Shown here piece after piece: positions 18,884 through 24,261 of a stretch of 64,000 nt of DNA. Origin of the DNA: Anaeromyxobacter paludicola (lineage in GTDB: Bacteria > Myxococcota > Myxococcia > Myxococcales > Anaeromyxobacteraceae). The notes under the pieces are model-generated. The model was given only the letters and a program-made list of their open reading frames with translations. It had not been told where the DNA came from and made no database searches. Both the position numbers and the translations under genes were made by a program. Location: the NCBI RefSeq assembly GCF_023169965.1, contig NZ_AP025592.1, positions 806,001 through 870,000 on the forward strand. The letters are read 5' to 3'. Each line of letters begins with the position of its first letter. The first letter of the stretch is position 1.

Positions 18884-19507
18884 TCAGGTCAGGAGGTCGG
18901 AGACGTCGCCCTTGCCCTCGCGCACGACCACCGGCTCAGGCCCGCAGAGGTCCACCACGGTGGACGGCTCGTTCGGCTGGTACCCGCCGTCGAGGATGAG
19001 GTCGAGCCCGTGGCCGAGCCGCTCCTTGATGTCGCGCGGGTCGATGAGCACCTCGCCGTCCGGCGCCGCCGCGGAGGTGGAGATGATCGGGTGCGCGAGC
19101 CCCTTCACCAGGGCGAGCGCGATGGGGCTGTCGGGGATGCGGATGCCCACCGTCTTCTGGCGGCGGAGCACGAGGTCCGGCACGAGCCGGGTCGCCGGGA
19201 GGATGAAGGTGTACGGGCCGGGCGCCTTGCGCCGCAGCACCCGGTACGCGGTGTTGTCCACGATGGCGTAGCGCGAGATCTCGGCCAGGTCGGCGCAGAT
19301 GAAGGAGAGCTCGTGCTCCTTCGGCATCTGCTTCAGCAGGTAGATCCGCTCGATGGCGCGCTTGTCGAAGAGGTCGCAGCCGAGCCCGTAGTAGGTGTCG
19401 GTCGGGAAGGCGACGAGGCCGCTCGAGGCGAGCACGGAGACGGCGCGCTCGACCGCGCGGGGCTGCGGATGCTGGGGGTCGATCTCGAGGATGGGCGCGG
19501 CAGCCAT
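18884..19507 (-). CDS. L-threonylcarbamoyladenylate synthase (Sua5/YrdC/YciO family)
   Basis: The 207-residue single-domain protein carries FPTDTYYGLGCDLF, the KQMPKEHELSFIC region and PGPYTFILPATR, then GIRIPDSPIALALV and ISTSAAAPDGEV. The family makes threonylcarbamoyl-AMP for t6A37 of ANN-decoding tRNAs. Its length fits YciO/YrdC-type proteins without the Sua5 C-terminal domain; YciO-type members have a less certain role. It begins the minus-strand run leading to xerD. A strong terminator upstream separates it from the KGG genes. Confidence 0.88.
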   Translation of the reverse strand: MAAAPILEIDPQHPQPRAVERAVSVLASSGLVAFPTDTYYGLGCDLFDKRAIERIYLLKQMPKEHELSFICADLAEISRYAIVDNTAYRVLRRKAPGPYTFILPATRLVPDLVLRRQKTVGIRIPDSPIALALVKGLAHPIISTSAAAPDGEVLIDPRDIKERLGHGLDLILDGGYQPNEPSTVVDLCGPEPVVVREGKGDVSDLLT

Positions 19508-19610: not shown

Positions 19611-19817
19611 TCAGGTCCGGGTCTTGCCCCGGTTGATGAGCTCCCGCACCTTCTGGCCGCCCTTGCGGCCGATCTCCTCGTAGAAGGCGTGCCCGCGCTC
19701 GTCTCGCACGGTGATGCCGCCCTTCCGCCCCGCCTCCGCCACCGTCATCGCGCGGCGCGGCGCCGCTCCGTCCAGCTCCGGTTGGGACCCGCCCACCTTC
19801 CCGTCTTCCATCGCCAT
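19611..19817 (-). CDS. KGG-motif stress protein, single repeat (YciG/Con-10 type)
   Basis: This 68-residue hydrophilic protein contains AEAGRKGGITVRDERGHAFYEEIGRKGGQKV, the KGG unit of YciG/Con-10 stress proteins. It is also close to the 20-residue motif of plant group 1 LEA proteins. It lacks Cys and hydrophobic stretches and is probably disordered until it binds partners or dries. ATG 19817 follows GGGGGGAAGC. It is a short paralog of the tandem-repeat gene just upstream, with which it shares the SEAGRKGG start and KGG-KVRELI end. Confidence 0.85.
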   Translation of the reverse strand: MAMEDGKVGGSQPELDGAAPRRAMTVAEAGRKGGITVRDERGHAFYEEIGRKGGQKVRELINRGKTRT

Positions 19818-19884
19818 GCTTCCCCCCTTCCCAAACCGGGCTTCGGCCGATCACCGGCGCGAGCCGGCGCCCGGCCTCCACCGG

Positions 19885-20268
19885 TCACTTCTCGTGATCC
19901 GTCACGGCCGTCTCCTCGGCGCCGGCCTTGCCTTTCTCGATCAGCTCGCGGACCTTGTGTCCGCCCTTCCGACCGATCTCCTCGTAGAAGGGCGTGCCGC
20001 GCTCGGCCTTGATGGTCTCGCCGCCCTTCTTGCCGATCTCCTCGTAGAAGCGGGGCCCGCGCTCGGCCTTGACCGTGTCGCCGCCCTTCTTCCCGATCTC
20101 CTCGTAGAACTTCCGGCCGCGCTCGGCCTTGACCGTCTCGCCGCCCTTCTTCCCGATCTCCTCGTAGAACTTCCGGCCGCGCGTCTCGCGCACCCGGACG
20201 CCGCCCTTGCGTCCCGCCTCCGACACGGTCATCGCGCCCTTGTTGCCGCCCTTCTTCTCCTCAGCCAT
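19885..20268 (-). CDS. KGG tandem-repeat stress protein, four 20-residue units
   Basis: The 127-residue protein is built from near-identical 20-residue units, KKGGETVKAERGRKFYEEIG and variants. They are flanked by the entry MTVSEAGRKGG and the exit RKGGHKVRELIEKGK. The units match the KGG/Con-10 family and resemble group 1 LEA hydrophilin repeats, so a desiccation or stress role is likely. ATG 20268 follows GGGAG and overlaps the last codons of an ATP-grasp ligase gene by 8 nt, so the two are translationally coupled. That linkage is unusual for a stress protein and raises the question of whether the ligase modifies the repeats. Confidence 0.88.
   Translation of the reverse strand: MAEEKKGGNKGAMTVSEAGRKGGVRVRETRGRKFYEEIGKKGGETVKAERGRKFYEEIGKKGGDTVKAERGPRFYEEIGKKGGETIKAERGTPFYEEIGRKGGHKVRELIEKGKAGAEETAVTDHEK
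19981..20190. repeat. 60-bp tandem repeat inside the KGG gene
   Basis: Units beginning CTCGTAGAA recur at 19981, 20041, 20101 and 20161 with a period of exactly 60 bp (20 codons). The last two share an unbroken run of more than 15 bases. The repeat is coding, and copy number may vary between strains by slippage or recombination. Confidence 0.85.
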
Positions 20269-21247
20269 GTGTCGCTCCCGTCTCTTGCAGCTTCGACTTG
20301 ACGCCGCGCCGGAGCCGGCACGTGGCCCTCGCGAGCACGTGATCGGCGATCCGCTCCGCCATGTCCTGCCCGGTGGCCTCGAGGATGCCGCGCCAGCTCG
20401 GGTTTCCGTTCACTTCGAGGACGGTCATGCCTTCCCCGCCGTCCGCCAGGTCCACTCCGGCATAGTCGAGCCCGAGCGCCGCCGCCGCGCTCTCGGCGAC
20501 CGCGCGCACCTCGCCCGCGGCCTCGTAGGCGCGGACGCGCGCCCCCTGCGCCACGTTGGTGCGCCACTCCCCCGGAGGCGCGACCCGCTCCATGGCTCCC
20601 ACCACCGCGCCCCCCACCACGAAGAGCCTGAGGTCGGTCCCGCCGGTCGGCACGAACTCCTGGAGGTACACCGCCCCGTCGCGGGCGAGCCGCTCCCGGA
20701 GCGCCTCGCGCCCGGCGGCGTCGTCGCGGACCCGCAGCAGCCCCTCGCCGAGCGATCCGGTGACGGGCTTCAGCACCGCGTCGCCCAGGGCCTCGAGGGC
20801 GGCGTCGGCCTCCTCCGGCCGCTGCGCCACCGCCGCGCGGGGGGTCGGCAGCCCCGCCCGAGCGAGCAGGCAGGTCGTGCGGAACTTGTCCTGGGCAGCC
20901 AGGAGCGCGTCGATGGCGTTCACCACCACCGCCCCGGACTCCTCGAGGGCGCGGTAGATCTCGAACTGCACGTCGGGGTCCCCGGCCCGGCCGAGGCCCC
21001 GCACGAGGACGAAGGCGTCGAAGCGCCCGGCCGGCTCGCCTCCTGCTCGCACGTCGACACCTTCCTCCACGAAGGCCGAGAGGCTCGCGGGGTCCACGGC
21101 GCTGGCGGCCCCGCGCCGGCCGAGCGCCTCCAGGAGCCGCTGGCTGTGCCAGTCCTCCTCCGGCCAGGCCGTCACCACGCCGAACCGGCAACGTTCACCG
21201 CGTCCCAAAAGCCTGCTCCCCTTCCCCTTCCCCGACCGCCTGGGCAT
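20261..21247 (-). CDS. RimK-like ATP-grasp ligase
   Basis: The 328-residue protein has an N-terminal pre-ATP-grasp region (FGVVTAWPEEDWHSQRLLEAL) and an ATP-grasp fold. The fold shows LLAAQDKFRTTCLLARAGLPTPR, VLKPVTGSLGEGLLRV, YLQEFVPTGGTDLRLFVVGG and the metal-binding end VLEVNGNPSW. It is closest by eye to RimK/MptN ligases, which add Glu or similar amino acids to a protein or cofactor. The start (ATG 21247) has no clear ribosome binding site and may lie further in. The stop overlaps the KGG-repeat gene by 8 nt. The natural acceptor is unknown. Confidence 0.85.
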   Translation of the reverse strand: MPRRSGKGKGSRLLGRGERCRFGVVTAWPEEDWHSQRLLEALGRRGAASAVDPASLSAFVEEGVDVRAGGEPAGRFDAFVLVRGLGRAGDPDVQFEIYRALEESGAVVVNAIDALLAAQDKFRTTCLLARAGLPTPRAAVAQRPEEADAALEALGDAVLKPVTGSLGEGLLRVRDDAAGREALRERLARDGAVYLQEFVPTGGTDLRLFVVGGAVVGAMERVAPPGEWRTNVAQGARVRAYEAAGEVRAVAESAAAALGLDYAGVDLADGGEGMTVLEVNGNPSWRGILEATGQDMAERIADHVLARATCRLRRGVKSKLQETGATHG

Positions 21248-21389
21248 AACGCTGGGCACGGTGTTCCGGCCGGACAAGGGAGCGGTTTTGCCCAAGCTCA
21301 GGCGACCGGCCCCCTCCCGAGCGCGGGGGAGGCCACGCCTGGGGCGAGAGCAGCCCCGTGAGAGCGCTGCGCCGGAGGGAGCCCGGCCG

Positions 21390-24158
21390 TCAGCTTCGCG
21401 CGGCGAGCGCCGCCTGGACGGCCTCGACGACCCGGCGGGCGTGCTCCGGCTCGAGGTGGCCGCCGCCCGGCGCGCGGACGTAGAAGGCGTCGGCGGCGCG
21501 GTGGCCCTCGGTGGTGATGCGGGCGAGGTCCACCGAGAGCCCGAGCTCGAAGAAGGCGCGGGAGAGCCGCCAGAGGAGCCCGACCCGGTCCGCGGTGAAC
21601 ACGTCGATGACGGTCCGGTCGCGGGCGCTGTCGTCGTCGATGACGACCTTCGTCGGCACGCTCGGCAGCGGCTTCTCCAGCAGGCCCGACGCGCGGAGGC
21701 GGCGGGCGAGGAGGGCCTCGAGCGACTCCTGGCCCGAGAGCACGCGGCGCAGGTCGGCGCGCGCGGCGCGCCACCGGGCCGGGTCGAGGGCGCCCTCCTC
21801 CGGCCCGCGCACCTCGAAGTAGTCGAGCGCGCGGCCGGAGAGCCAGCCCAGCGCCGGCGCGTCCGGCGTCGTCGAGTAGACCTCGGCGTGCTGGATGTCG
21901 ATCCGGTGGGCGGCGAGCACCCCGGCGACGAGCGACAGGAGCCCGGGCCGGTCCGGCGCGGTCAGCGTCAGCTCGGAGTAGCCGAGCTGCGGGTGGTGGC
22001 GCATCGCGGCGGCGAACGGGAGCGCGCGGCTCCGCCGCAGGAGGCGCAGGTGGGTGGGCGCCTGGCGCGGCTCCACGGTGACGAAGTAGCGCGCCGGCAT
22101 GGCGGCGAGGAAGCGCGTCCGCTCCCGCTCGGTGGCGCGGGCCTGGAGCGCCTGCGCCACCCGCGCCCGGCCGGAGGACTCCGCCGCCCCGGGGTCGGCG
22201 CGCCGCCGCCCCTCGCCGGCCGCCAGCGCGGCGCTCGCCTTCTCGTACAGCTCGCGCAGGAGCCGGGCCTTCCACTCGGTCCAGGTGCGCGGGCCCACCG
22301 TGGCGATGTCGGCGTAGGTGAGGAGGTACAGCTTGTCGAGCCGGTCGGTCGAGCCGCACTCGGCGGCGAAGGAGTGGATGAGCTCCGGGTCGGAGAGGTC
22401 GCGCCGCTGCGAGATCGCGGCCATGCGCAGGTGCTTCGCGACGAGCCACTCCACGTCGGCGGCGTCGGCGGGGTCGATCCCGAGCCGCACGCAGGCCTGG
22501 GCGGCGATCTCTGCCCCGCGGGCGGCGTGGTCGGCGCCGCCGCCCTTGCCGATGTCGTGGAAGAGCGTGCCGAGGTAGAGCGAGAGCGGCCGCTCGAGCC
22601 GCTGCATGAGCGGGGCGAGCGACTCCTCCTTCACGTCGCCGGCGCGCAGCGCGAGCAGCCGCCGGACGGCGAAGAGGCTGTGAACGTCCACGGTGTACAC
22701 GTGGTAGACGTCGATCTGGCGCCGGGCGGTGATGCGCGCGAACTCGGGCACCAGCCTGGGCAGCACGCCGAGCTGGTGCATCACCGAGAGGAACCGGCCG
22801 CGGGTGCCGGGGCGCAGCATCGCCGAGAGGAGCTCCTGGTTGAGCTCCGGGTCGTCCGCCGCCTCGGGCGGGAGCTCGGCGGCCACCGACGCGGCCTGGT
22901 CGCGGGCGTACGGGTAGAGCTCGAGCCCCTCGCGGTCGGCGGTGGTGAAGAGGCGCAGGAGCGCCGCCGGGGACTTCTGGAGCACGTCGCTGCTCGCGAC
23001 GGTGAGCCGGCCGCGGAAGACCTTGAACTCGCCGCCCGGCAGCGCCCACTCCGCGCTCGGCGGGCCGGCGCGCCGCTCGGCGCCGGTGAGCGTGGCCGGC
23101 GCCGGCACCTGCCGCCAGCCGGTGGAGTTGGCCGGCTCGAGCGCCCGGTCCACGATGGCGTCGCAGGCCACGCGGATGGTCTTCGCGGCGAGGTAGTAGT
23201 GCCGCATGAACTCCTCGACCGCCGGCTTGCCGTCGGGCTCGACGTACCCCATGAACCGCGCCACCTGCGGCTGGACGTCGAAGGTGAGCTGGTCGCTCTT
23301 GCGGCCCGCGAGGTAGTGGAGCTCGTTGCGGACGCGCCAGATGTAGTCGCGGGCCCGCCGCATCTCCCGGATCTCGCGCTCCGGGAGGAGCGCCCGGGCG
23401 AGCAGCTCGGTGACGCCCGCCACCTTGAAGCGGACGCGCGCCACCCAGAGCGCCGACTGGAGATCCCGCAGCCCGCCCTCCGACTGCTTCACGTTGGGCT
23501 CGAGCAGGTAGAGCGAGTCGCCGAACTTCTCGCGCCGCTCCCGCATCTCGGCGAGCTTGTCGGTGACGAAGCCCTCGGCCCGCGCCTGGGAGAGCCCGTG
23601 GAGCTGCTCGCGCTCGAGCTCGCGGTAGAGCGCCCGGTCCCCCGCGAGCCAGCGCAGGTCGAGGAGCGCCGTGCGGGCGGTGTGGTCCTCGGCGGCGAGC
23701 GACTCGCAGCTCGCGAGATCGCGGACGCCGTAGCCCACCTCGAGCCGGAGGTCCCAGAGCGAGTAGAGGAACTTCTCGCTGGCGGCCTTGGCGAAGGCGT
23801 CGGGCGCGCCGCGGCCGTGGAGCACGAGGAGGTCGAGGTCGCTGTACGGCGCGAGCTCGCGCCGGCCGTAGCCGCCGAGGGCGACGAGCGAGAGCGGGCT
23901 CGGGGGCGCGGCGCGGGCGCCCTCCTCGAGGGCCCGCTCCCAGAGGTGGGTGACGAGCCCGTCCATGGCGGTGCTCTGGAGGCGGACCACGGTGTGGCCG
24001 CTCGCGCCGGCGCGGTGGGCGCCCTCGAGGAAGGCGCGCAGGGCGGCGAGGTCGGCCTTGGCGTCCCCGGTCAGGGCGGGGATCCGGGCCGAGTAGGTCT
24101 CGAGCTCGTACGGGGCGGCGGCGGGGAGCGCGGGAGCGGAGGGGGCGAGCTCGGGCAT
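21390..24158 (-). CDS. glnD: [Protein-PII] uridylyltransferase / uridylyl-removing enzyme
   Basis: The 922-residue bifunctional nitrogen sensor has a nucleotidyltransferase domain (GGYGRRELAPYSDLDLLVL, about 95-113). A helical linker, an HD domain (TLFHDIGKGGGADHAARGAEIA) that removes UMP, and two C-terminal ACT domains that bind glutamine complete it (YSELTLTAPDRPGLLSLVAGV and KVVIDDDSARDRTVIDVF). The length is normal. It uridylylates PII proteins when glutamine is low. ATG 24158 is chosen over a longer frame. No PII gene is adjacent. Confidence 0.95.
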   Translation of the reverse strand: MPELAPSAPALPAAAPYELETYSARIPALTGDAKADLAALRAFLEGAHRAGASGHTVVRLQSTAMDGLVTHLWERALEEGARAAPPSPLSLVALGGYGRRELAPYSDLDLLVLHGRGAPDAFAKAASEKFLYSLWDLRLEVGYGVRDLASCESLAAEDHTARTALLDLRWLAGDRALYRELEREQLHGLSQARAEGFVTDKLAEMRERREKFGDSLYLLEPNVKQSEGGLRDLQSALWVARVRFKVAGVTELLARALLPEREIREMRRARDYIWRVRNELHYLAGRKSDQLTFDVQPQVARFMGYVEPDGKPAVEEFMRHYYLAAKTIRVACDAIVDRALEPANSTGWRQVPAPATLTGAERRAGPPSAEWALPGGEFKVFRGRLTVASSDVLQKSPAALLRLFTTADREGLELYPYARDQAASVAAELPPEAADDPELNQELLSAMLRPGTRGRFLSVMHQLGVLPRLVPEFARITARRQIDVYHVYTVDVHSLFAVRRLLALRAGDVKEESLAPLMQRLERPLSLYLGTLFHDIGKGGGADHAARGAEIAAQACVRLGIDPADAADVEWLVAKHLRMAAISQRRDLSDPELIHSFAAECGSTDRLDKLYLLTYADIATVGPRTWTEWKARLLRELYEKASAALAAGEGRRRADPGAAESSGRARVAQALQARATERERTRFLAAMPARYFVTVEPRQAPTHLRLLRRSRALPFAAAMRHHPQLGYSELTLTAPDRPGLLSLVAGVLAAHRIDIQHAEVYSTTPDAPALGWLSGRALDYFEVRGPEEGALDPARWRAARADLRRVLSGQESLEALLARRLRASGLLEKPLPSVPTKVVIDDDSARDRTVIDVFTADRVGLLWRLSRAFFELGLSVDLARITTEGHRAADAFYVRAPGGGHLEPEHARRVVEAVQAALAARS

Positions 24159-24261
24159 CCGTCGAAGTATACCGGCCGGGGGGTGGCGCGTGCCGCACCT
24201 TCGGCGCCGGGCGCGCGCCACGCTCGTCGCGGCGGCGGGGCGGCCGCCCTGGCCGGTGCGC

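Follow-up and report, generated by a model that had tools for sequence, protein, structure and literature searches.

An unusual gene pair, in which a RimK-type ATP-grasp ligase overlaps the start of a KGG repeat protein, raises the question of whether the enzyme modifies the proteins encoded directly behind it. In the window, which is the whole stretch of 64,000 nucleotides analysed, the ligase, KGG1 and KGG2 genes lie on one strand between glnD and a yrdC/sua5-like gene (Table 1). The sequence-only reading had described a ligase that shares 8 nt with a 127-residue protein of four 20-residue KGG units, with a second KGG protein after it, and each part of this description is borne out by the shared ATGGCTGA at the KGG1 start and ligase stop, the KGG1 open reading frame and its exact unit spacing, and the PF10685 match of KGG2. 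The overlap is identical in 12 of the 13 family genomes that bear the pair and measures 11 nt in the other, at locus L014; an overlap of this kind would couple the making of the enzyme to that of its proposed substrate. Purifying selection acts on both genes, with dN/dS values against the sister genome G001 of about 0.23 for the ligase and about 0.07 for KGG1.

The end of the ligase gene at 20261 stands as first read, but its start at ATG 21247, which would yield a protein of 328 aa, is open to doubt. This ATG is followed on its 3' side by a strong Shine-Dalgarno stretch, GGGGAAGGGGAAGGGGAG, G001 has no ATG at the corresponding position, the ligases of relatives carry an ATG roughly where TTG 21208 lies, just past the Shine-Dalgarno stretch in most, and residues 1-17 are disordered in the AlphaFold model of the ligase. 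The start is therefore probably TTG 21208, which fits better and yields 315 aa. Upstream lies a 36-nt block that is conserved across the family, occurs only once in the genome and is probably the promoter of the ligase-KGG unit; scans for sigma-70 promoters and for terminators returned no match.

Table 1. Coordinates of the ligase-KGG locus and of related features; positions are those of the window unless a locus handle is given.
Feature	Position	Strand	Evidence or remark
RimK-type ATP-grasp ligase	20261..21208	-	PF08443 1.4e-31; TTG 21208 most likely start, 315 aa
8-nt overlap ATGGCTGA	20261..20268	-	ligase stop / KGG1 start; same in 12/13 family members
GGGAG, likely KGG1 ribosome-binding site, within ligase 3' end	20275..20279	-	sequence
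KGG1, 127 aa, four 20-residue FYEEIG..KGG units	19885..20268	-	LEA_5 PF00477 1.8e-11, KGG PF10685 6.7e-10
KGG2, 68 aa, one unit	19611..19817	-	PF10685 5.1e-6; conserved in family
Purine-rich Shine-Dalgarno stretch preceding TTG 21208	21216..21232	-	conserved in 12 loci
Upstream block CGCTCCCTTGTCC..CCCAGCGT, likely ligase-KGG promoter	21249..21284	-	alignment of 12 loci
glnD, upstream neighbour, ancestral block	21390..24221	-	PF08335 3.3e-43; synteny
yrdC/sua5-like gene, downstream neighbour, ancestral block	18884..19507	-	PF01300 2.2e-53; synteny
Candidate acceptor Glu of KGG1	residues 37, 57, 77, 97		second Glu of each FYEEIG unit
Histone-H1-like KGG paralogue	L039:7982-8476, L040:8315-8641, L042:8122-8424, L049:7144-7587		

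KGG1 possesses five KGG motifs that bound four exact 20-residue FYEEIG units, with four PF10685 stretches, and the 20-residue spacing was exact in KGG1 taken from all 50 genomes. Both KGG1 (39.5 bits) and KGG2 (27.1 bits) exceed the PF10685 (KGG) cut-off of 20.4 bits, a property shared with the KGG/LEA_5 stress proteins YciG and GsiB, for which, unlike KGG1 and KGG2, no ligase partner was found described in the literature search. The AlphaFold model of KGG1 is of low confidence (pLDDT 50) with a helical tendency. The whole KGG1 protein was used as the query in place of the Pfam KGG profile, whose 22-position model is too short for genome-scale E-values and found no match in the genome of origin; a plasmid search with KGG1 returned only Gram-positive general stress proteins, and one with the ligase returned no match. 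Other KGG genes were seen along the way. A paralogue with a Lys/Ala/Thr-rich, histone-H1-like N-terminus fused to one KGG unit, possibly a nucleoid protein, lies in the same array in families f6, f8 and f7. An array of five tandem KGG genes of 1-4 units each (L040:8315-10121) suggests repeat-gene expansion, and a second KGG/LEA gene in the genome of origin (L057, G000:C1:277991-278335) is plant-Em-like, with units of the GGEARKGQLG type.

To which enzymes the ligase is related bears directly on its substrate. It exceeds the cut-off of TIGR00768, the subfamily model for RimK family alpha-L-glutamate ligases (183.5 bits, cut-off 143.4), and falls below those of the equivalogs for RimK S6 ligase (NF007764; 99.6 bits, cut-off 331), MptN (NF040720; 224.8 bits, cut-off 350) and LysX (TIGR02144; 150.4 bits, cut-off 275.6), and of the GAK system ATP-grasp model (TIGR04356; 138 bits, cut-off 300). 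The best structural match of its AlphaFold model (pLDDT 86.6) is RimK (Z 30.6, rmsd 2.3, 286 residues), followed by LysX (Z 29.0) and ArgX (carrier protein LysW; Z 28.6), with glutathione synthetase and the graspetide ligase PsnB (Z 23.7) lower; the modelled fold is that of protein/peptide ligases. Residues K121, K160, R207, D266, E278 and N280 are invariant in 15 orthologues and, matched by eye on printed alignments, align with RimK, the ATP-grasp catalytic residues being intact. Pseudomonas RimK contacts its glutamate chain through R64, R189 and N262 (PMC10092738), and by the same matching these align with the invariant R83, R207 and N280, whereas S68, a serine that also contacts the chain, is not conserved.

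RimK, the ribosomal protein S6:L-glutamate ligase of Pseudomonas and E. coli, is known to act on a protein, and the likeness to it extends from the fold to the catalytic and glutamate-contact residues; however, the ligase is only about 27% identical to RimK and, unlike RimK, has KGG gene neighbours. The sequence-only reading had placed the ligase among enzymes of the RimK kind, and this option, taken as C-terminal tagging, is disfavoured, given that a RimK S6-type substrate has a conserved C-terminal Glu, whereas the C-termini of KGG1 and KGG2 are variable (HEK, EHH, DDR, GER, RT, RS, RG) and lack one. In LysX/ArgX with LysW, too, an enzyme of the RimK fold works on a small protein dedicated to it, but the KGG proteins are not LysW-like and the ligase does not sit beside lysine or arginine pathway genes.

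On a phylogenetic tree, the 17 KGG-linked ligases tested form one clade (support 96/97) that excludes RimK-like paralogues, including the two in the genome of origin, and whose sister group consists of planctomycete and archaeal MptN-like enzymes, with which it has an EWRTN loop in common. This placement, together with MptN as the best NCBIfam score, counts in favour of the main rival, in which the enzyme would synthesise or extend a small molecule, such as a glutamyl metabolite or a poly-alpha-glutamate protectant, and the KGG genes merely belong to the same stress cassette, their products untouched. The alpha-glutamyl ligases MptN and MyfB act on small coenzymes, and MyfB, which shares 33% identity with MptN, produces free polyglutamates (PMC8141765). 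A cassette of this kind would also accommodate the persistence of KGG without the ligase, and in A. vinelandii one stress sigma factor is required for both RimK and LEA-1 (PMC10651043). Nevertheless, the MptN score lies far under its cut-off, the MptN-like relatives examined have no KGG neighbours, and a small-molecule product accounts neither for the ligase being found only alongside KGG nor for the Glu co-variation described below. We consider this explanation unlikely, if still a serious contender.

The distribution of the ligase was surveyed in 195 genomes of the phylum. Orthologues are present in 21 of them, within one myxobacterial branch, in families f1, f2, f3, f6 and f8, and form a discrete clade (315-503 bits, the next best match scoring 191 bits). 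KGG genes lie directly downstream on the same strand of all 21, the G044 locus being assembled from two contig ends, and no genome among the 195 has the ligase without KGG. The pairing is thus not a one-genome accident. A ligase neighbourhood free of KGG genes in most relatives, which the sequence-only reading had named as evidence against its proposal, was not what the survey found. No KGG genes were found around other enzymes of the RimK family (18 loci, flanks of roughly 1 to 6 kb), and the ligase clade was absent beyond the phylum in one peptide-pattern scan of genome contigs whose reach is close relatives only. A literature search found no paper combining KGG with ATP-grasp; most subscription papers lay outside its reach, and the pairing may have been described elsewhere.

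The dependence runs in one direction. Four families have KGG but no ligase: in f7 the gene sits within the ancestral block, in f9 it follows glnD directly, and in f4 and f5 it is found near yrdC, amiC or both; KGG1 in these families is 71-82% identical. KGG proteins therefore do not need the ligase and, given that these genes lie at or near the same locus, the ligase-KGG adjacency is partly inherited synteny. The ancestral order, mutS-amiC-glnD-(ligase)-KGG-yrdC-xerD-(M50 protease)-trpS, is shared by members of the order whether or not they have the ligase, as would be expected if the ligase entered the old mutS-amiC-glnD-KGG-yrdC-xerD-trpS block and was inherited passively with it, its substrate being unrelated. 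However, the pair survives disruption of the block: it lies apart from both glnD and yrdC in f8 and in genus g15 of f3, whose two genomes have one new context in common, and no KGG is found at the yrdC loci of these genomes. Several lineages, conversely, lack both genes while the block stays. In genera g5 and g6 of f1 and in genome G007 of g2, glnD directly adjoins yrdC and both genes are absent; G002 of g2 has a 1.7 kb gap between glnD and yrdC with neither gene; and G041 of f3 also lacks both. Passive linkage is thus quite improbable. On the MutS tree, the ligase requires 8 changes and KGG 7, and an independent-pair test gave 3-5 concordant and 0 discordant pairs (p 0.06-0.25). Loci L107-L112, from related genera, show a clean absence of the cassette between glnD and yrdC and offer natural comparison strains.

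Of the 21 genomes that carry the ligase, 20 have the second Glu of FYEEIG in every one of the four KGG1 units, the exception being f8 with one EQ unit; none of the 29 genomes that lack the ligase does, T, Q, A or S occupying the position in at least one unit. The family-level contrast at this position (0.53) is the largest of the 20 register positions, the next being 0.19. Its permutation p of 0.016 precedes correction for 20 positions or phylogeny and is not significant after correction; the data had drawn attention to this position before it was tested, and the 29 ligase-less genomes represent four families only. The co-variation, drawn from aligned repeats, is therefore suggestive, a lead rather than a result. 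The Glu of KVRELI behaves in the same way, except in f9.

The repeat composition also bears on a graspetide-like reaction, an option raised by the sequence-only reading, in which the ligase would form side-chain lactam or ester links from repeat Glu to Lys or Thr and so staple each unit. As with PsnB and MdnC, an ATP-grasp enzyme lies beside a repetitive candidate precursor, PsnB is a structural relative, and each KGG1 unit has a conserved Glu and Lys. The repeat Lys and Thr are, however, equally conserved in ligase-minus genomes, and the ligase scores far below the cut-offs of the maturase models (28.9 bits against an MvdC cut-off of 425; 48.6 bits against an SAV_5884 cut-off of 350). The conserved N-terminus of KGG1 has no Pro and so lacks the Pro-hydrophobic-hydrophobic leader motif, although this motif occurs in only about half of known graspetide precursors (PMC8939145). 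Stapling of this kind is disfavoured and very unlikely.

The reading that we favour is that the ligase is a putative dedicated RimK-type protein-modifying enzyme acting on the KGG repeat proteins encoded downstream, because of its one-way dependence on KGG genes, its protein-ligase fold and the Glu lead. The enzyme would activate a carboxylate with ATP and attach to the KGG repeats an amino acid that is most probably glutamate; within each FYEEIG unit the second Glu would be the likeliest acceptor or recognition residue, with the Glu in the terminal KVRELI element as the alternative, and ligation would alter the charge of a disordered, stress-type protein. KGG genes without the ligase would be accounted for in this proposal because KGG proteins can also work unmodified. 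Our confidence nevertheless stays somewhat below one half because the ligase diverges faster than KGG1 (61-66% against 93-98% identity to the window in f1 genera) and because KGG is widely distributed without it. The suggestion of the sequence-only reading that gene coupling points to action on the repeat protein thus gains from the invariable adjacency and from the pair being kept outside the block, but is tempered by inherited synteny and by a Glu signal that is only suggestive.

Proteins of the KGG/LEA type are generally regarded as disordered protectants that carry no modification. Their post-translational glutamylation, or a related carboxylate ligation, with a RimK-type enzyme modifying each 20-residue repeat once, is a candidate modification that we regard as rather doubtful in this specific form. 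If true, it would describe a hydrophilin with its charge tuned by a partner enzyme, would lengthen the short list of proteins on which enzymes of the RimK type are known to act, and would allow direct tests in bacteria of what the modification does to such a protein, since natural relatives exist with and without the ligase.
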